Source: Euzebya pacifica (GTDB lineage Bacteria > Actinomycetota > Nitriliruptoria > Euzebyales > Euzebyaceae). Taken from it: a stretch of DNA of 64,000 nt. Position 1 is the stretch's first letter. Every line of letters begins with the position of its first letter. Below are positions 2,929-22,089 of this stretch, piece after piece. The position numbers and the translations under genes were made by a program. A model generated the notes under the pieces. That model saw only the letters and a program-made list of their open reading frames with translations. It was not told the origin of the DNA and made no database searches. The stretch is from contig NZ_CP031165.1 in NCBI RefSeq assembly GCF_003344865.1, positions 3,601,910 through 3,665,909 on the forward strand, given 5' to 3'.

Positions 2929-4446
2929 ATGTCCGAACACCCCCCTTCCACGATGCCGACCCGTGCCCGCATCACGGCCCTGCTGCAGTTCAGCGGCCGC
3001 TACCGCGTGCTGCACCTCACCTGGTTCGCGTTCTTCCTGTCCTTCGTCGTCTGGTTCAACTTCGCGCCGTTCTCCGCAACCATCGGTGAGGAGCTCGGCC
3101 TGTCACGCGAGCAGCTGATCACCATCGGGTTGTGCAACGTCGCGCTGACGGTTCCGGCCCGCGTGCTGATCGGCATGGCGCTGGACCGCTGGGGGCCTCG
3201 TCGCGTGTACGCCTCGATCCTCGTGTACGCCGCGTTCCCCTGCACGATGTTCGCGCTGTCCACGTCGTTCCCCATGCTCGTCGTCAGCCGGCTGGCCCTG
3301 TCCATCGTCGGTGCCGGCTTCGTCGTCGGGATCCGCATGGTCAGCGAGTGGTTCCCTCCCCGTGAGATGGGGACCGCCGAGGGGGTGTACGGCGGCTGGG
3401 GCAACTTCGGCTCGGCTGCCGCAGCGTTCGCGCTGCCGACCCTGGCCGTGGCAGCGGCCGGCCTCGGCGGGTGGCGGCTGGCCATCGGCACGACCGGCGT
3501 ACTGGCGGCCCTCTACGGGCTGTACTACCTGACCGCGGTGACCGACACACCCGACGGGGTGGCGTTCGCACGGCCACGGCGGCAGGGTGCGCTGGAGGTC
3601 ACGACCCGTGGGGCCGTGTTCGGCCTGCTCGCCCTAAACATCCCCTTGGTCGGCATCCTCGGCTTGGTTGCCTGGCGGCTGATGCGCGTCGGATTCCTGT
3701 CCGCGACTGCCTTCACCGCCGTGCTCGTGGTGCTGGGGCTGGCCCTGGCTGTCCAGTCGCGCAGCATCCTCGGGGTCAACGCGCCGGCCCTCGCCGAGGA
3801 GTACGAGGCGTCGGACACCTACCCCTTCCGCTCCGTCGCGGTCCTGTCGCTGGCCTACGCGGTCACGTTCGGGTCCGAGCTCGCCGTCGTGTCGATGCTG
3901 CCGACGTTCTTCGCCGACACCTTCGGCCTGTCAGCGGTGGCGGCCGGGGCGACCGCGTCGGCGTTCGCGTTCATGAACCTGGCGGCCCGCCCCATCGGCG
4001 GCCTGATGAGCGACGTCATGGGCAGCCGCAAGCGGACGCTTCGCGTGATCCTGCTGGGCCTGGCGGTCGGCTACTCACTGATGGCGCTCGTCGGCTCGTC
4101 GTGGCCGGTGGCTGCAGCCGTTGCGGCAGCGATGTTCTGCAGCTTCTTCGTCCAGGCCGGCGAGGGCGCCACCTACGCGATCGTGCCGTTGGTGAAGAAG
4201 CGGGTGTCCGGCCAGATCTCCGGCATCGTCGGGGCCTACGGCAACGTCGGGGCGCTGCTGTTCCTCACCCTCCTGCTGTTCGCGGGACCGACGGCCTTCT
4301 TCCTCACCATCGGCGCGTCGGCCGTCGTCGCCTCGGTGGCAGGACACTTCCTGGTCGAGCCCGAGGACAGCTTCGCGGAGGGGCATGCCGACGACGCGGT
4401 CGGCCGGGTCGCCCTCCCGGATGCGGCCGTGGTCCCGGTCGCCTGA
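2929..4446 (+). CDS. narK: Nitrate/nitrite transporter, MFS NNP family
   Basis: A 505-residue protein with about 12 hydrophobic segments. MFS loop motifs are visible, including ALDRWGPRRVY after the second segment, and a Gly-rich helix reads GVYGGWGNFGSAAAAF, as in NNP nitrate/nitrite porters. An AAGGAG ribosome site lies 9 nt before the ATG. It follows nirD by 56 nt, so import and reduction of nitrite are probably co-transcribed. Whether it prefers nitrate or nitrite, or imports or exports, cannot be read from the sequence; the link to assimilatory nirBD favours uptake. Confidence 0.9.
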   Translation: MSEHPPSTMPTRARITALLQFSGRYRVLHLTWFAFFLSFVVWFNFAPFSATIGEELGLSREQLITIGLCNVALTVPARVLIGMALDRWGPRRVYASILVYAAFPCTMFALSTSFPMLVVSRLALSIVGAGFVVGIRMVSEWFPPREMGTAEGVYGGWGNFGSAAAAFALPTLAVAAAGLGGWRLAIGTTGVLAALYGLYYLTAVTDTPDGVAFARPRRQGALEVTTRGAVFGLLALNIPLVGILGLVAWRLMRVGFLSATAFTAVLVVLGLALAVQSRSILGVNAPALAEEYEASDTYPFRSVAVLSLAYAVTFGSELAVVSMLPTFFADTFGLSAVAAGATASAFAFMNLAARPIGGLMSDVMGSRKRTLRVILLGLAVGYSLMALVGSSWPVAAAVAAAMFCSFFVQAGEGATYAIVPLVKKRVSGQISGIVGAYGNVGALLFLTLLLFAGPTAFFLTIGASAVVASVAGHFLVEPEDSFAEGHADDAVGRVALPDAAVVPVA

Positions 4447-4498: not shown

Positions 4499-5773
4499 TC
4501 AGCCCGTCCGGGCCATCCGGCGTCGACGAGGACCTTCGCTGAGGCCACGCGCGATCTCACCCGCCACGTAGCGGCCGGCGGCCACCACGTGGTTGAGCGA
4601 CGGGTCGACGTCCTTGCCGTCCCCCATCAGGCCGATCTGCGCCTCGTACCATTCCGACTCGCCTGCGGCGGTGATCAGCGGAGGTGGGGTGTAGTCGGGC
4701 AGGTCGACCCCGTCGGAGGTGCCGTCCAGCAGCGCCGTCGGCAGGTCCGGGTCGAACGCCAGCGGGCGTGCAAGTCCCACCGCGTCGACCGCACCGGACT
4801 CGACGAGGGCCTCCATCGCCTCGCGGGTGCGCAGGCCACCGGTGAGCAGCAGCGGCATGTCGCCGGCGACGGTGCGGGCGCGGCGGGCGAAGCCGGCGAA
4901 GTAGGCCTCCTTGAACGCACTGCTCCCCTCCTCCACCTGCTCGACCCGGGACTCCTGCACACCCGACATGTCGGCCAACCCGAACATCTCCGGCGACTCG
5001 TAGGTCCCACCGGAGATCTCCAGGAGGTCGACGTCCTCTGCGGCGAGCATGCCGACGACCTCGGCAGCGTCGTCCTCGCTGAACCCACCGTGCCTGAAGT
5101 CGGAGCTGTTGAGCTTCACGCCGACGGAGAACCCGTCACCGGTCGCCTCGTGGCAGGCCCGGACGATCTCGATCAGCAGCTTGGCCCGACCAGCGAGGTC
5201 GCCACCCCACTCGTCGGTGCGGCGGTTGGTGTGCGGCGACAGGAACTGCGCCAGCAGGTACCCGTGGGCGGCGTGGACCTGCACGCCGTCCATGCCGGCG
5301 TCACGACACCGGACGGCCGCCGCCGCGAACGCCGTCACGACATCGCTCACCTCGGCGGCGGTCAGCGCCCGCGGTCTGGCGAAGGACCCCAGCAACGCGA
5401 CGGCCTCGACCTCGCTCGGGGCGACGGGCTCGCTGGTGATGTAGCGGGTGCACTGGCGCCCGGGGTGGCCGAGCTGCGCCACGATCGGGACCTCGCCGGT
5501 GGCCTCGACCACCCGCCGCAGGGCCGGCACGTCGAGGTGGGCGTCGGCCACGATGTTTCGGCTGCGCTCGAGGTAGCGACGGTCGACCATGAGGTTGCCG
5601 GTGATCAGCATCCCGGCCCCGCCCTCGGCCCAGCGGCGGTACACCCGCTCGTGGCGCACGGTCGGCTGGTTCCGCGAATCGGCCAGGTTCTCCGTCATCG
5701 GCGCCTTGACGATGCGATTGGGCAGGGTCAGGCCGCTGGGCAGCACGAGGGGCTTGGCGAGGATGGAGGACAC
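4499..5773 (-). CDS. NADH:flavin oxidoreductase, Old Yellow Enzyme family
   Basis: A 424-residue TIM-barrel FMN oxidoreductase. Family features include LPNRIVKAPMTENLAD near the N-terminus, the segment HAAHGYLLAQFLSPHTNRRTD with its His pair, and GGLRTREAMEALVESGAVDAVGLARPL in the phosphate-binding region. It lacks the C-terminal Fe-S and second flavin domain of 2,4-dienoyl-CoA reductase. The GTG at 5773 is chosen because GGAAGG lies 7 nt upstream; an ATG at 5821 would add 16 unlikely residues. It is transcribed away from the sensor-kinase block. The substrate is unknown. Confidence 0.85.
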   Translation of the reverse strand: MSSILAKPLVLPSGLTLPNRIVKAPMTENLADSRNQPTVRHERVYRRWAEGGAGMLITGNLMVDRRYLERSRNIVADAHLDVPALRRVVEATGEVPIVAQLGHPGRQCTRYITSEPVAPSEVEAVALLGSFARPRALTAAEVSDVVTAFAAAAVRCRDAGMDGVQVHAAHGYLLAQFLSPHTNRRTDEWGGDLAGRAKLLIEIVRACHEATGDGFSVGVKLNSSDFRHGGFSEDDAAEVVGMLAAEDVDLLEISGGTYESPEMFGLADMSGVQESRVEQVEEGSSAFKEAYFAGFARRARTVAGDMPLLLTGGLRTREAMEALVESGAVDAVGLARPLAFDPDLPTALLDGTSDGVDLPDYTPPPLITAAGESEWYEAQIGLMGDGKDVDPSLNHVVAAGRYVAGEIARGLSEGPRRRRMARTG

Positions 5774-5891
5774 GGACTGACCTTCCGATGGACGACGACA
5801 CGGCAACTTAACAGTGTTCATCTCGAATGTCGACCAGTCGGGTTCGACAGGGACGTCAGGGATTCACGCAGTCCGACGCCTGCCCACGAGG

Positions 5892-5897
5892 TAGACC
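5892..5897 (+). promoter_or_regulatory. Candidate -10 box for leaderless start of the hybrid kinase
   Basis: TAGACC sits 7 nt before the GTG at 5905 and no Shine-Dalgarno precedes that codon. The geometry matches other genes in the window. The last base is C rather than T, so support is moderate. Confidence 0.4.
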
Positions 5898-5904
5898 ATC
5901 GTCA

Positions 5905-7791
5905 GTGGAACTCAACGCTCGTGACCTCGTCGGCGCCGCTCCGGTGCCGTGGTGCCTCGTCGACGGCGAGGGCAGGGTCGTGCGCGTCAACGACCGGATG
6001 GCTGAGCTGTGCGAGTCCTCCCCCGCAAAGCTCGAGGGCCGAGAGTTCCTCGACCTCGTCGACCCGACCGACCGGGCCAGGATCCTCGTCCCCCGACCGG
6101 AGTCGACGGTCTGGATGGCGTCGACACGGTTGATGACCGGACGGCCCGACCTGCACGTCACCGTCACCGGTGCGCCGGTCCCCACCTCGGACGGCAGCCG
6201 GATGTCCATCCTCGTCCTGAGTGACATCAGCGAACTGGTTCGGGCAACTGCAGAGGTCGATGAACTGCGCCGAGCAGCCCTCGACCTGGCGGACCAGCGG
6301 ATCGCCATGGTTGCCACCGTCGCCCACGAGCTCCGTTCCCCCCTCCATGCCATCAACGGGTGGACGGAGATGCTGGCTGCCTCGGCGCTCGACCCCGAGC
6401 AACGTGACCTGATCGTCAGCCTCGAGACGGCGGTGGGTCGCCTGCGACGAACCGTCGACGAGTTCCTCGAGATCTCGCGTCTGGATGCCGGCGAGGTGGT
6501 CCTGCGCCCCACCGACGTTGACGTGCGAAGCCTCGTCGGGCGGGTGATGGAGCAGCATCGACAGCGTGCCGAGGACACCGGGACCGACCTGCAGGTCGTC
6601 ATTGCCCCGGCCGTCCCGGCGATTCTCCACATCGATGGGTACCGGTTGGACCAGATCCTCACCAACCTCGTGGCCAACGCCGTCACCCATGGGGCTGGCG
6701 AGTCGGTTCGGGTCGACGTGGACACCATCGACGGCACCCTTCGACTCGCCGTCCAGGACCGAGGACCCGGCGTGCCGGAGGCCTACCGGGAGCGGATCTT
6801 CGATGCGTTCGTCCGTGCCCCCGGGTCCGAAGCAGGCGGCACTGGGCTCGGGTTGCCGCTCGTTCGGTCGCTCACGAGGCGTCTCGGGGGCGATGTGCGG
6901 TTGGAGGCACCGAGCGACGGGGGCACGCGCTTCGCGGTGACCCTCCCCCTCCTCGGGGCAGGCGACCCTCCCCGGACCCTGAGTCCCGTCGAAGGGGATG
7001 CGGTCGCGACGACGGCGGCCTCGGCCCGCGTGCTCGTGGTCGAGGACAACGAGATGATCCAGCTCCTCTCCGCCCAGCAGCTTCGCAGCCTCGGGCACGC
7101 CCCCACCGTGGTCGGCACGGGTGCCGAGGCACTGGAGTTCCTGCTCGACGCGACGCGCGTGGTCGACCTGGTGCTGATGGACTGGCAGCTACCGGACCTT
7201 CGGGGCACCGAGGTCTGCCGGCGCTTCAGGGAGGTCGAACGGCGGCAGAAGCGGGGACGGACGCCGGTCATCGCCCTCACGGCGAACGCCATGCCCGATA
7301 CACGCGCTGCATGCCTGGCTGCGGGCATGGACGACTTCCTGCCCAAACCGGTGTCCGCTGCGGCGTTGGGGACCATGGTCGTCCGCTGGACCGCCGGCAA
7401 CACCGATGGGGCGGGCGGCCCTCCCGTCATCGACGCGGCACGCCTGTTGGCGCTGGGCGCAGGAGGAACGACCGTCACGCCGATCGCGCAGGCCGTCCGA
7501 CATCACCTCACGCACCTGGAGGACGACCTGGATCGTCTGGCGGAGGACGACCCACCGCCGGTGAGGCGCCTGTTGCACGGTCATCGGGTGTCCTGCGAAG
7601 TCATGGGCCTGGCCCAGCTGGCGGGCACACTGCGCGAGATGATGCATGGCGGTGGGCACCAGGATGACCTGCGCAGTCGCGCGCGGGAGGACATCCAACG
7701 GATCAGGCGTCGAATCAACACGATCACCGAACACGGTCCTCCGGCCACGGCGGACCTGACGGCAGTCGATCGGGAAGCTGCGGAGCGATGA
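5905..7791 (+). CDS. Hybrid sensor histidine kinase: PAS-HisKA-HATPase-receiver-HPt-like
   Basis: A 628-residue cytoplasmic signalling protein with no membrane segment. An N-terminal PAS-like domain (about 1-115) begins APVPWCLVDGEGRVVRVND. The H-box is AHELRSPLH with H141. The ATPase core has LTNLVANAVTHG, DRGPGVP and GTGLGLPLV. The receiver has acidic VEDNE, phospho-acceptor D426 (LMDWQLPD), LTANA and the Lys of LPKPV. The tail, LLHGHRVSCEVMGLAQLA, resembles an HPt site with H558, though degenerate. GTG 5905 is preferred over ATG 5827 because of the -10/start geometry and because the extra 26 residues look non-conserved. It lies 61 nt before the H-NOX gene. Confidence 0.85.
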   Translation: MELNARDLVGAAPVPWCLVDGEGRVVRVNDRMAELCESSPAKLEGREFLDLVDPTDRARILVPRPESTVWMASTRLMTGRPDLHVTVTGAPVPTSDGSRMSILVLSDISELVRATAEVDELRRAALDLADQRIAMVATVAHELRSPLHAINGWTEMLAASALDPEQRDLIVSLETAVGRLRRTVDEFLEISRLDAGEVVLRPTDVDVRSLVGRVMEQHRQRAEDTGTDLQVVIAPAVPAILHIDGYRLDQILTNLVANAVTHGAGESVRVDVDTIDGTLRLAVQDRGPGVPEAYRERIFDAFVRAPGSEAGGTGLGLPLVRSLTRRLGGDVRLEAPSDGGTRFAVTLPLLGAGDPPRTLSPVEGDAVATTAASARVLVVEDNEMIQLLSAQQLRSLGHAPTVVGTGAEALEFLLDATRVVDLVLMDWQLPDLRGTEVCRRFREVERRQKRGRTPVIALTANAMPDTRAACLAAGMDDFLPKPVSAAALGTMVVRWTAGNTDGAGGPPVIDAARLLALGAGGTTVTPIAQAVRHHLTHLEDDLDRLAEDDPPPVRRLLHGHRVSCEVMGLAQLAGTLREMMHGGGHQDDLRSRAREDIQRIRRRINTITEHGPPATADLTAVDREAAER

Positions 7792-7852
7792 CGCTGATCA
7801 CCACCAACGCGCGACGGGTCCCGCGAAGCCGTTCGAGGAACGAGGATCTCGG

Positions 7853-8404
7853 GTGAAGGGCATCATCTTCAACGTCGCAGAACGAGTCGTCTCCGATCGG
7901 TGGGATCCCGAGACGTGGGATGCGGTGCTGGACCGCGCCGGCCTCGTGGGCGCCTACTCGGCGCTCGGGACCTACCCCGACCAGGACATGGTCGCCATCC
8001 TGCGCGCCGCTGCGGACACGCTGGGAGTGCCCGTCGCCCACGTCCTCAGGGTGGTGGGACGTGACGGGTACCAGCACCTGGCCAACCGTTATCCCGACCT
8101 GTCGTCGCGCTACGCATCGGCCCGTGACGTGCTGCTGCACCTCGATCAGGTCATCCACCCCCAGGTCAAGGCGCTCAACCCCGAGGCGATCGTCCCCGAG
8201 TTCGACGCGTCGACGGCCGGCAACACCGTCATTCTCCGGTACCGATCGGAACGCGCCATGTGCCACCTTGCCGAGGGGCTGGTGGAGGGTGCGGCCGACG
8301 CCCACGGTGACATCGTCCGGGTGACCCAGCCGACATGCCGCCTCAACGGTGACGAGGAGTGTGTCCTGCACGTCACGTTCGAGGTGCCCGGACTGACCTC
8401 GTGA
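7853..8404 (+). CDS. hnoX: H-NOX heme nitric-oxide sensor protein
   Basis: A 183-residue stand-alone heme-NO-binding domain starting MKGIIFN, the family hallmark. H102 aligns with the proximal heme ligand of characterised H-NOX proteins (VIHPQVKALNP). The heme-propionate motif Y-x-S-x-R is Y130-R-S132-E-R134. The position of the distal Tyr that stabilises O2 in the Thermoanaerobacter protein (its Y140) is Leu139 here, which predicts binding of NO but not stable O2. GAGGAT lies 5 nt before the GTG start. The next kinase gene overlaps its stop by GTGA, the usual pairing of H-NOX with a kinase it regulates. Confidence 0.93.
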   Translation: MKGIIFNVAERVVSDRWDPETWDAVLDRAGLVGAYSALGTYPDQDMVAILRAAADTLGVPVAHVLRVVGRDGYQHLANRYPDLSSRYASARDVLLHLDQVIHPQVKALNPEAIVPEFDASTAGNTVILRYRSERAMCHLAEGLVEGAADAHGDIVRVTQPTCRLNGDEECVLHVTFEVPGLTS

Positions 8405-9600
8405 CCGATGCAGCAGCCTACAGGCGGCGGTGGGAACGCGAACGCTTGGCCCGCGAGGAAGCCGAGACGATCGCCGAGCGAGCGCTTGCTGACCTCTACG
8501 CAGCCAATCAGGCCCTCGATGCGCGCGTGCAGGAACAGACCATCCACCTGACCGAGGCGCTGGCACGGGCACACAGGGCCGCCGCCGCCCGCGACGGCTT
8601 CCTCCACCAGCTGGCACACCGGGCCAGCAGCCCACTTCACATCGTGCAGGGCTTCGTGGAGCTCGTGGCACAAGAGGTCGGTCCGGGGCGTCTCGCACGA
8701 ACCGCCGCGACCGCCGTGCAGGCGACCCGTCGTCTGGGTCGCAGCTTCGAGGGCCTGCTCGAGCTGTCCCAGATCGTCGCCGGGGGGTTCGATCCCCAGC
8801 CGTCCGGCACCTGCCTCGCCGACTGGACCGACGGCCTCCTGCGGCGCTGGCTACCCGATGTCGCTGCAGCCGGACGGACGATCATCGTCGACCCCGGGAA
8901 CGCGCTGACGACCCCCTTCGAGGTGGACGTCCACCGCCTCGACCAGATCATCGACCCTCTGCTGGACAACGCCATCCTCCACGGGCAGGGACAGATCACA
9001 GTCGAGGCTGACCTCGACGGAGAGACCCTGCGCTGCAGCGTCGCCGACGATGGCGACGCGCCCGCCCCCGAGACCATCGAGCAGATGCTGACGCCTTTCT
9101 GGTCGACCACGGATGACGGGTTCGGTGTCGGCCTCTCGCTGTCGCTGATCATCACCGAGGGCTTGGGTGGTCATCTCCACATCGATCCCGTCTCGACGCA
9201 CACCTGCCTGCGGTTCGTCCTTCCCGTGTCGCCGTCCCTCCGGCGCGCCACCGACCTGGCGACCGTCGACGACGCCGTCCTGCGCGCGCTGGTCGCCGAG
9301 CTGCCCGTCCCGGGCCTGCCGAGACGGCTTGTCGATGCGTGGACGGGCAGCCTCGACGCCCACCGCCTCGCCCTGCTGTCCGGCGACAGCGACGCCATCA
9401 CCGGAGCGGCTCATGCATTGATCTCCGGAGCGAGGCAGCTGGGGCTCCACGAGCTCGGCGCTGCGGCTGCCGAGGTCGAGAGGGGGGACACGCGAGAGCT
9501 GCGGCTCCTGGTGGAGGCCCTCGACCTGGCGCCTGCGGCGCTCCACGAGGCGCTCGAACGGCTGGAAGCTGACGCCGACGATGGTCCTGACCAGAACTGA
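8401..9600 (+). CDS. hnoK: H-NOX-associated histidine kinase with C-terminal HPt domain
   Basis: A 399-residue soluble kinase with no membrane or sensory domain of its own; an N-terminal coiled coil (about 1-60) precedes the catalytic part. The H-box AHRASSPLH carries H73, with Ser-Ser where HELRTPL is usual. The ATPase has LDNAILHG, VADDGDAP and GFGVGLSLSLI. A C-terminal HPt domain has AAHALISGARQLG with H338. It is probably inhibited or activated by NO-loaded H-NOX, as in characterised H-NOX/HnoK pairs. The HPt could pass phosphate to the receiver of the upstream hybrid kinase or to a distant regulator. The start is the GTG overlapping the H-NOX stop. Confidence 0.87.
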   Translation: MTDAAAYRRRWERERLAREEAETIAERALADLYAANQALDARVQEQTIHLTEALARAHRAAAARDGFLHQLAHRASSPLHIVQGFVELVAQEVGPGRLARTAATAVQATRRLGRSFEGLLELSQIVAGGFDPQPSGTCLADWTDGLLRRWLPDVAAAGRTIIVDPGNALTTPFEVDVHRLDQIIDPLLDNAILHGQGQITVEADLDGETLRCSVADDGDAPAPETIEQMLTPFWSTTDDGFGVGLSLSLIITEGLGGHLHIDPVSTHTCLRFVLPVSPSLRRATDLATVDDAVLRALVAELPVPGLPRRLVDAWTGSLDAHRLALLSGDSDAITGAAHALISGARQLGLHELGAAAAEVERGDTRELRLLVEALDLAPAALHEALERLEADADDGPDQN

Positions 9601-9678
9601 CCGATCTGCTGGACCGACGGGTGCCGTCTGTGGCCGGGGTCCCGCGACGTTCCTGGTGACGACCCGACCGGTCAGGGT

Positions 9679-9684
9679 TAGCAT
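9679..9684 (+). promoter_or_regulatory. -10 box for leaderless GNAT gene
   Basis: TAGCAT lies 6 nt upstream of the GTG at 9691 with no Shine-Dalgarno between them. Confidence 0.5.
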
Positions 9685-9690
9685 GCGCCG

Positions 9691-10650
9691 GTGATCACAC
9701 GTCCCCTGCGTCCGGCGGACCTCGCAGCCGCCCTGGTCGTCCGCAACGCCGTCGAGGAGGCCGACGCGCTCCCCATCCGGACCCCGATCGACGAGCTCGA
9801 GGAGGAGCTGACCGACGAGGGCGTCAGCTGGGCAGACGACACGCGCGGCGTGTTCGACGACGAGGCGTGCGTGGCCTACGCCTGGACCCGCCTGCCACCG
9901 GGGGCCACCGAGGACGGGTGGAACGTGCACGTGCACGTGGCCGTGCATCCCGACCGGACGACGCAGGGGCACGGGCGTGCGCTGCTGGAGTGGGCCGAGG
10001 CCCGCGGGATCGCGCGGCTGGCGGCGCTGGGCACCGACCAGCCGTGCCGGTTGACGACCTTCCTCAACGACACCCAGTCGAGGGCCGGCCGGATGCTCAC
10101 CCGGGCGGGCTTCGCGATCGAGCGCTACTACGACGAGCTGACGGTCACGCTCGAGGACCGTCCGCCCGTCGATGCGGCCGAGGGCGTCGTCCTGACCGCA
10201 TGGGACGCCGACGTGTCCGAGGCCGCCCGCCGGGTCAAGAACAGCGCGTTCGAGGATCACTGGGGCTCGGTGGCCACCCCCGCCACGAGCTGGAAGCGGA
10301 TGGTGGGGTCGCCCCGGTTCCAGCCGGAGATGTCCACGCTGGCATGGGACGGCGACGACCTCGTCGGTGTGGTCATCACCAACCTCTATCCCGAGGACTG
10401 GCCGGTCGTCGGCCGCGAGGAATCGTTCATCCACATCGTCGCCGTGCTGGCCAGCCACCGCGGTCGCGGCATCGCGAAGGCGATGATCGACCGGGCCCTC
10501 ACCGCGTCAGCGGCAGCGGGTCTGACGCACACGACCCTGGGGGTCGACACGGCCAACCCCACCGGCGCCCACGCCCTCTACACCGGTCTCGGATTCGTCC
10601 CGACGGCCCGCAACGCTGGCTGGGCCAAGCCCGTGCACCCCCCTGCGTGA
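9691..10650 (+). CDS. GNAT acetyltransferase with two GNAT domains
   Basis: A 319-residue protein with two tandem GNAT folds. The N-terminal half (about 1-150) has VHVAVHPDRTTQGHGRALLEW, a Q/RxxGxG-type acetyl-CoA loop. The C-terminal half (about 165-319) has VLASHRGRGIAKAMIDRAL and the family ending TGLGFVP. This architecture resembles mycothiol synthase-like and other double-GNAT proteins, but no substrate can be assigned. It begins at a GTG predicted to be the first transcribed codon and ends 12 nt before dodecin. Confidence 0.85.
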   Translation: MITRPLRPADLAAALVVRNAVEEADALPIRTPIDELEEELTDEGVSWADDTRGVFDDEACVAYAWTRLPPGATEDGWNVHVHVAVHPDRTTQGHGRALLEWAEARGIARLAALGTDQPCRLTTFLNDTQSRAGRMLTRAGFAIERYYDELTVTLEDRPPVDAAEGVVLTAWDADVSEAARRVKNSAFEDHWGSVATPATSWKRMVGSPRFQPEMSTLAWDGDDLVGVVITNLYPEDWPVVGREESFIHIVAVLASHRGRGIAKAMIDRALTASAAAGLTHTTLGVDTANPTGAHALYTGLGFVPTARNAGWAKPVHPPA

Positions 10651-13180: not shown

Positions 13181-13918
13181 CTAGCTCTCGAACTGCTCGT
13201 ACCCCTCGGCCTCGAGCATCTCCGCGAGGTCCGCGCCACCGGTCTTGACGATGCGACCGCCGGCCATCACGTGCACGTGGTCGGGCGTGATGTAGTTCAG
13301 GATGCGGGTGTAGTGCGTGATCAGCAGGACACCGAGGTCCGGACCGCGCAGCTTGTTGACACCCTCGGAGACGATGCGCAGGGCGTCGACGTCCAGGCCG
13401 GAGTCGGTCTCGTCGAGGACGGCGATGCGCGGCTTGAGCATGGCCATCTGCAGGATCTCGAAGCGCTTCTTCTCGCCACCGGAGAAGCCCTCGTTGACGT
13501 TGCGCTCGAGGAACTTGCCGTCCATCTTCAGGTCCGCCATGTGCTCGCGGAGCTTGGTCATGAACTGGCGGACCGGCATGTCCTCCTCGCTCGTGGCGTT
13601 GACGGCCGTGCGCATGAAGTTGGTCAGGCTGACCCCGGGGATCTCCGTGGGGTACTGCATGGCCAGGAACAGGCCGGCAGCGGCCCGCTCGTTAGGCGCC
13701 ATCTCGGTGACGTCCTCGCCGTCGAAGCGGATGGCTCCGGCGGTGACCTCGTAGGCGGGGTGGCCAGCGATGGCGTAGGCGAGGGTGGACTTGCCCGAGC
13801 CGTTGGGGCCCATGAGGGCGTGGGTCTCGCCCTGGGCGACGGTCAGGTCGAGGCCGGTGAGGATTTCCTTGCCCTCGACCTCGACCTTGAGGCCCTCGAT
13901 TTCGATACGTGCACTCAT
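13181..13918 (-). CDS. sufC: SufC, ATPase of the Fe-S assembly scaffold
   Basis: A 245-residue ABC-type ATPase that binds the SufB-SufD scaffold. Walker A is GPNGSGKST, the signature is FSGGEKKRFE and Walker B is IAVLDETDSGLD, the diagnostic SufC form. The start MSARIEIEG at 13918 has AGGAGA 8 nt upstream. The N-terminal extension that is open in frame is ignored because it runs into the preceding gene. Confidence 0.95.
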   Translation of the reverse strand: MSARIEIEGLKVEVEGKEILTGLDLTVAQGETHALMGPNGSGKSTLAYAIAGHPAYEVTAGAIRFDGEDVTEMAPNERAAAGLFLAMQYPTEIPGVSLTNFMRTAVNATSEEDMPVRQFMTKLREHMADLKMDGKFLERNVNEGFSGGEKKRFEILQMAMLKPRIAVLDETDSGLDVDALRIVSEGVNKLRGPDLGVLLITHYTRILNYITPDHVHVMAGGRIVKTGGADLAEMLEAEGYEQFES

Positions 13919-21588: not shown

Positions 21589-21616
21589 GAACCCCGCCTG
21601 TCCTCAGGCGGGGTTC
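21589..21616. terminator. Bidirectional terminator hairpin
   Basis: The arms GAACCCCGCCTG and CAGGCGGGGTTC (12 bp, perfect) flank the loop TCCT. The hairpin lies between the convergent lipoprotein gene and receiver gene, and its right arm contains the last codons and stop of the receiver gene. Confidence 0.85.
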
Positions 21617-22089
21617 GACGCTTCCGGCGGCTCGGCGCCGAAGCCGTGTTCGAGCTGCAGCAGCAGCTCTGCGCGTTCGAGCTCCTTCACGCGCATCGCC
21701 CGGCGTTCGCTGACCTCGCGGCCGGTCAGGTCGGCGACCAGGTAGGCGAGCTCGTCGACGTCGAAGGGCTTGGTGACGTAGCCGTCGGCCCCCGCCCTGA
21801 AGGCGTTGACGATGTCGACCTCGCGGCCCCGAGCGGTCAGCATGACCACCGGCGGGTCATCGCCGTGCTGGCGCAGGGCGTGCAGCACCGCGAACCCGTC
21901 GAGGCCCGGCATCATGATGTCGAGCAGGACGAGGTCATAGGTGTCGTGCTGCGTTGCCTGCAGCGCCTCGACACCGTTCGCGGCCTCGACGACCGCCATC
22001 GGCTGTCCGCTGGGTGGCGATCCCTCGAGCGCCACACGGACGGTGAACCGCACGTTCGGGTCGTCATCGACGACCAGCACCCTGACCAC
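21604..22089 (-). CDS. Receiver-domain response regulator without recognised output
   Basis: A 161-residue protein. The receiver domain has acidic VVDDD, phospho-acceptor Asp in VLLDIMMPGLDGF, LTARG and the Lys of VTKPFD. The last 35 residues (REVSERRAMRVKELERAELLLQLEHG split into a basic then leucine-rich part) look helical, not like a DNA-binding domain. GTG 22089 lies 26 nt after the S1-domain gene, so they may be one operon. The partner kinase is unknown; the HPt kinases near 5.9-9.6 kb are possible but unproven. Confidence 0.85.
   Translation of the reverse strand: MVRVLVVDDDPNVRFTVRVALEGSPPSGQPMAVVEAANGVEALQATQHDTYDLVLLDIMMPGLDGFAVLHALRQHGDDPPVVMLTARGREVDIVNAFRAGADGYVTKPFDVDELAYLVADLTGREVSERRAMRVKELERAELLLQLEHGFGAEPPEASNPA

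Follow-up and report, generated by a model that had tools for sequence, protein, structure and literature searches.

A recurrent three-gene H-NOX module of Actinomycetota and its apparently orphaned copy in Euzebya pacifica

The stretch of 64,000 nucleotides of Euzebya pacifica contig NZ_CP031165.1 (positions 3,601,910 to 3,665,909; referred to below as the window and numbered from its first letter) encodes on its forward strand a hybrid histidine kinase (5905-7791), a heme-NO/O2-binding (H-NOX) protein of 183 amino acids (7853-8404), where NO is nitric oxide, and a second histidine kinase (HK)-like protein (8401-9600). These three genes represent a real and conserved actinobacterial module under constraint (hereafter the triad), which is a variation on H-NOX signalling and not a category of its own. 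On balance, the triad is best regarded as an H-NOX-gated phosphorelay whose ancestral output would have been a polysaccharide cluster and which appears to have been orphaned in the window species. The initial annotation had noticed an intact H-NOX gene between a hybrid kinase with a receiver and an HPt-like tail and an HK with an HPt of its own, and this observation is correct, as borne out by the Pfam matches, alignments and AlphaFold models; its interpretation of the module is partly supported.

The search of actinobacterial genomes for the same three-gene order, which had been suggested as a check, showed that it recurs in the sister species (G002), in an uncultured Ilumatobacter (contig L083) and in 16 genomes of another order (G089 and fifteen more), in the latter as a hybrid kinase of the HK-REC-HPt type, H-NOX, and a kinase with an N-terminal coil. 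Together with the window and a reordered triad with an OmpR-type regulator on the Actinomycetota contig L029, these make up the set of 20 triads to which the counts below refer. The H-NOX domain HNOB itself is uncommon among genomes of the phylum (10 of 396), and in the order of G089 it was found in 23 of 248 genomes, with 22 over the family cut-off. In the sister species the layout is the same as in the window, namely nirB, narK, an OYE-family gene on the opposite strand, the hybrid, H-NOX and the HK, and the two other congeners have neither H-NOX nor anything that matches the hybrid or third gene at the level of an ortholog, all three genes being jointly present or absent in the four congeners. 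In a tree of 48 hybrid kinases the triad hybrids form one clade (100/98) that excludes the two nearest hybrid paralogs of the window genome, and the third genes of the triads also form one clade (94/83); the window module has the triad gene order, with its hybrid and third gene inside these clades. Strict monophyly of the triad H-NOX proteins was rejected, as their tree needs three changes and the 20 triads lie inside a 25-row set, and monophyly is therefore claimed for the two kinases only. The simplest reading of these gene orders and trees is one ancestral actinobacterial module, conserved and not a local accident. A second, divergent H-NOX lineage occurs in the order of G089 (L155, L156, L159 and L174), beside GGDEF proteins without the conserved coil described below.

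The product of 7853-8404, the sole HNOB gene of the 6.37-Mb genome, matches HNOB (PF07700) with 108.8 bits against the cut-off of 25.5 (E 3.5e-31), and its closest relatives in the PDB are Shewanella H-NOX (6.5e-22). The heme residues were correctly read in the initial annotation as the proximal histidine H102 (codon 8156-8158) and Y130, S132 and R134, and all four are invariant in 20/20 triads. The 3Cys+Gln zinc motif was overlooked there: C137, Q159, C162 and C170 align to the Shewanella ligands and agree with the definition of the zinc site in H-NOX groups 2 and 3, i.e. three cysteines with histidine or glutamine (PMC12329717).

The presence of both sites raises the possibility of a redox switch, in which the H-NOX would signal via oxidation of the zinc-site cysteines C137, C162 and C170 (with Q159) and not via NO. 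Such a switch has a precedent in the Caulobacter H-NOX of group 3, which bound NO, yet inhibited HnoK solely after cysteine oxidation (PMC12329717), and the actinobacterial H-NOX proteins fall in the same group 3 of the sequence network (PMC8738867). However, the cysteines are kept in only six of the triads (window, sister and four others), all three being lost in the remaining 14 with the same partners, while the heme residues never vary, and the shared input of the module is for this reason placed at the heme site. The module as a whole is therefore independent of the thiol site, and a thiol switch was rejected as the general input of the triad family; in the window species it could still operate, which we consider unlikely. 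The residue pattern favours a heme-ligand signal, and by analogy with the rest of the family NO would be the most likely ligand.

The open reading frame of the hybrid kinase begins at 5827 (5827-7791), with GTG 5905 as the alternative and likelier start. It contains PAS, HisKA (1.4e-16), HATPase_c (2.8e-25) and Response_reg (1.3e-20) matches and has an ortholog of 63% identity in the sister species. Its phospho-accepting histidine in the DHp domain is H167 (counted from 5827; 6325-6327) in the motif HELRSP, and the receiver aspartate, given earlier as D426 from the start at 5905, is confirmed and corresponds to D452 from 5827 (7180-7182). The C-terminal part (7420-7750) of the window copy gave no Pfam Hpt match, but it aligns with the canonical HPt domains of relatives, and R66 and H69 of the tail are the sole invariant positions in the alignment of 20 related tails, H69 being H584 of the protein (codon 7576-7578). 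The AlphaFold model of the tail (pLDDT 79.7) has HptB as the best fold match (Z 12.5, 2.6 A over 107 residues), followed by ZmHP2 and the BarA HPt. Helical bundles generally score high in fold searches, so the assignment is based on the invariant histidine and the position after the receiver; by sequence and model, the tail is predicted to be an HPt domain, a four-helix bundle with a conserved histidine. The H-E motif, the receiver aspartate and the HPt histidine, i.e. the residues of a complete His-Asp-His relay, are intact in 20/20 triad hybrids.

The third gene starts with GTG at 8401 and overlaps the H-NOX stop by 4 nt, as had been described. Its product is composed of an N-terminal coil, a degenerate HisKA domain (1.7e-5), HATPase_c (5e-15) and a C-terminal Hpt match (1.1e-3; 8.2e-5 in the sister species). 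The coil (RRRWERERLAREEAETIAERALADLY..., 8419-8500) is common to effectors encoded directly after H-NOX: its consensus LERRLxRERxARxEAExIAERxxRxLY stands at the start of the gene that follows H-NOX in the majority of related loci, which span several phyla, and is fused there to GGDEF-EAL, HK, HK-REC or longer kinases. This near-universal position next to H-NOX argues that the 8401-9600 protein is the one facing the H-NOX, which may be in physical contact with the coil.

A feature missed in the initial annotation is that the conserved acidic residue which follows the phospho-accepting histidine is missing from this kinase. At H73-R74 (8617-8622) the histidine is kept and the glutamate or aspartate of the kinase motif is replaced by arginine, so that HRASSP in the window (HRTGSP in the sister) departs from H-[E/D]-x-x-[T/N]. 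The acidic residue is required for autokinase activity in CrdS, HK853, HK4262 and HK1190 (PMC3510030) and acts as a general base in CpxA (PMC3904827). Among the triads the third gene has the canonical H-E in 12/20 and has lost the kinase signature in 8/20, with the histidine missing in L018, L165, L169 and L170, arginine after it in the window, L011 and L168, and glutamine in L029. The HPt-like domain (9385-9590; H338, codon 9412-9414, in a helix modelled by AlphaFold at 330-346) is an extra part of the third protein found only in the genus of the window, and H338 could accept phosphate from the hybrid receiver.

These data bear on the classic H-NOX/HnoK circuit, in which the NO-bound H-NOX would inhibit autophosphorylation of the 8401-9600 kinase, whose phosphate would go to the HPt that it carries and to the hybrid's D452, so that two kinases would be active in a branched relay. 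NO-bound H-NOX does inhibit the adjacent kinase in the Vibrio and Shewanella systems (PMC8738867), and H73 with most of the ATP-site motifs is kept in the window protein, as is the canonical motif in the majority of the orthologs. On the other hand, both congeners have arginine in place of the acid needed in the four HisKA proteins cited, and 4/20 orthologs have no phospho-accepting histidine at all while the hybrid never degenerates; the classic circuit is thus a doubtful explanation, though one to be taken seriously. The degeneration of the third gene in 8/20 against an intact hybrid in 20/20 argues for a modulator role of the former and for a phosphorelay placed in the latter: the third protein appears to be an H-NOX-bound protein that modulates the hybrid, and not itself the principal kinase. 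The branched relay proposed earlier accordingly stands in so far as an H-NOX/kinase/HPt module exists, whereas its two equal kinases are less likely than a modulator with a hybrid kinase.

The preferred mechanism would then proceed as follows. Ligation of the heme, most likely by NO, would change the H-NOX, which would then bind the coil at the N-terminus of the next gene product. This degenerate HK would mainly modulate the adjacent hybrid, perhaps serving also as a phospho-acceptor via H338, and the hybrid would run the relay through H167, D452 and H584, with a separate response regulator as its end point. Ancestrally, to judge by gene neighbourhood, the output would be an OmpR-type regulator and a cluster for polysaccharide synthesis and export.

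The recurrent families of this cluster include a PMT_2/PTPS-like membrane protein of about 1,100 amino acids, an Ig-like protein, a membrane-anchored family of about 205 amino acids, GT4 and GT2 glycosyltransferases and a polysaccharide flippase, with SpoIIE/HATPase/STAS genes often coming after them. At least one of these families is present beside 17/20 triads, the window and two short contigs being the exceptions; among 93 other H-NOX loci none has such a neighbour, save for a single weak GT2 match. The PMT-like gene was found in 16/16 triad genomes of the order of G089 and in 3/232 others (Fisher 1.6e-22, kinship ignored). In the sister species a cluster of about 9.7 kb, including an OmpR-type response regulator, sits exactly between the HK and a GNAT gene. 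The corresponding junction in the window (9600-9691) is empty, the HK and GNAT genes being 90 bp apart, and the DNA on either side of it aligns with that of the sister (72-85% upstream, 92% downstream). The PMT-like gene was not found in the whole window genome, nor were other cluster genes within the 64-kb window to which their search was limited. The cluster is a common companion of the triad but no part of its definition. As a distant order has the same association, the empty junction is most simply read as a loss of the cluster in the window lineage, by which the module of this species would have been orphaned. The sister GNAT gene after the cluster is a short remnant (L203 about 13686-13809; G002 about 315685-315808), and the gene is intact in the window (9691-10650).

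With the cluster and its regulator gone and the three genes intact, the present output would therefore be either a response regulator encoded elsewhere or nothing at all, the module being vestigial. By the latter explanation the three genes are functionless leftovers of the loss of the cluster and response regulator, which is suggested by the missing cluster itself, by an H-NOX branch that is longer for the window (0.52) than for the sister (0.15) and by the ratios of nonsynonymous to synonymous substitution (dN/dS), which are higher for the triad genes than for their neighbours. However, these ratios between window and sister (0.28-0.38) are well below 1 and indicate purifying selection, all three frames are open and the key residues are kept, so that a vestigial module appears decidedly improbable. 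As to the regulator, no ortholog of the one in the A6 alignment is claimed for the window species, since its own best match (230 bits) falls below those of the sister (278) and of a congener that lacks H-NOX (312); the last of these, the strongest to this family of triad-associated regulators, is G001:C90:17099-17770 and is adjoined by a histidine kinase match. Apart from the module, the window was found to encode one two-component protein, a stand-alone receiver of 161 amino acids (21604-22089, reverse strand), which was rejected as the output because it is an intact REC domain alone, with no link to the module.

The initial annotation had placed nirBD-narK just upstream of the module and related the two through NO as a by-product of nitrite metabolism. 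The genes nirB (18-2525), nirD (2522-2872) and narK (2929-4446) are confirmed there, but the OYE-family gene (4499-5821) intervenes on the opposite strand. A local regulator of nitrite or NO, controlling or monitoring these neighbours, would agree with their distance of about 1.5 kb upstream in both module-bearing species. However, they flank the module only in the genus of the window, none of the other triads and H-NOX loci examined has nirB, nirD or narK as a neighbour, and NirB is also encoded in a congener without the module. NirBD, moreover, makes ammonium, and the copper NirK-like gene lies some 1.5 Mb away. With the OYE gene divergent and the polysaccharide cluster flanking the module elsewhere, the functional link is not supported, nirBD-narK was rejected as a conserved partner, and the local regulator is very improbable. 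The copper nitrite reductase-like protein (L125, G000:C1:5140276-5141205; TIGR02376 244 bits, under the cut-off of 296) consists of a NirK-like domain followed by a plastocyanin-like domain, with motifs resembling both copper sites by eye; a protein of this type occurs in both congeners with the H-NOX module and, as a weaker match, in a third, and it is a candidate source of NO.

Several points weigh against the orphaned phosphorelay preferred here. NO binding and the contact of H-NOX with the kinase are assumed from the family, and H73 is kept in the third protein of the window, which makes its trans-phosphorylation possible. The co-occurrence statistic for triad and cluster takes no account of phylogeny, and an insertion of the cluster in the sister species is the less likely alternative to a loss here. 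Other genes lie between the triad and the OmpR-type regulator of the sister, and with the family of this regulator scoring higher in the congener that lacks H-NOX (312 vs 278 bits), its cognate status is unproven. In addition, the three triad genes have diverged from the sister at synonymous sites (dS 0.78-0.95) roughly twice as far as nirB, narK and the OYE gene have (0.44-0.49), which suggests recombination or a different history of the module genes, and the triads of the two species are perhaps not plain orthologs.

Closest in function is the Vibrio fischeri pathway from HnoX-HahK through SypF (HPt) and SypG to the syp polysaccharide (PMC12369376; PMC8738867). There, too, an H-NOX and its adjoining kinase act, by way of an HPt-bearing hybrid kinase and a DNA-binding regulator, on a polysaccharide locus. 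However, the partner HahK belongs to the hybrid kinases in its own right, its H222 and D506 both being active, and the components of the pathway lie scattered, whereas in actinobacteria the partner, the hybrid and, in the relatives, the cluster share one locus, and the partner of the window lacks the kinase acid. The H-NOX/HnoK systems of Shewanella oneidensis, Vibrio cholerae and Caulobacter also have H-NOX adjoining an HK, with the zinc motif of three cysteines and histidine or glutamine (PMC12329717), but contain one active kinase with cyclic di-GMP or unknown outputs and no conserved adjacent hybrid with HPt. In the Caulobacter DivL-CckA-ChpT-CtrA pathway (PMC5361649; PMC9430884), a degenerate HK gates a hybrid kinase ending in an HPt step, with no H-NOX. 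DivL is the top Foldseek match of the third protein and the third by phmmer; the fold is common to all histidine kinases, so the likeness is one of analogy and not of membership, and the preferred role of the third protein would be to act toward the hybrid in the manner of DivL toward CckA (PMC5361649). Within the phylum, four freshwater actinobacterial double H-NOX loci (L032, L033, L040 and L071) likewise contain an OmpR-type regulator of the A6 alignment, H-NOX, a hybrid, a coil partner with REC and a separate HPt. They differ in the HNOBA domain of the hybrid (found in L032 and L040, the two scanned), in having no polysaccharide cluster and, in 3/4, in a second H-NOX of a distant lineage without the zinc cysteines. 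These loci are operon-like, with a partner of the coil-GAF-degenerate HK-REC type and the HPt gene on the opposite strand.

The earlier statement that no actinobacterial H-NOX has been characterized experimentally holds for the literature searched: a review of 2022 gives no NO-sensing H-NOX reported from Gram-positives, and actinobacterial H-NOX proteins are already listed in its sequence network (PMC8738867). In the open-licence literature neither the triad nor its cluster was found described, nor was any biochemical work on them, an earlier account in a subscription journal being possible.

The module probably evolved to control a polysaccharide coat in response to NO, not nitrite metabolism. 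A bolder and more tentative proposal, which falls short of being probable, is a new class of actinobacterial NO signalling, in which H-NOX would act via a pseudokinase-like adaptor on a hybrid relay and a dedicated polysaccharide cluster, the kinase function of the adaptor having been lost independently in several lineages and the cluster deleted, with the sensor kept, in the window species. H-NOX signalling has so far been worked out in Gram-negative bacteria, and here a defined and recurrent actinobacterial module offers a concrete candidate output in the form of the polysaccharide cluster, together with a natural experiment, since the cluster is present in one congener and missing in another. 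The loss of the zinc cysteines in 14/20 loci makes the question of heme versus thiol sensing directly testable, as the repeated loss of the kinase motif does for the role of the partner.

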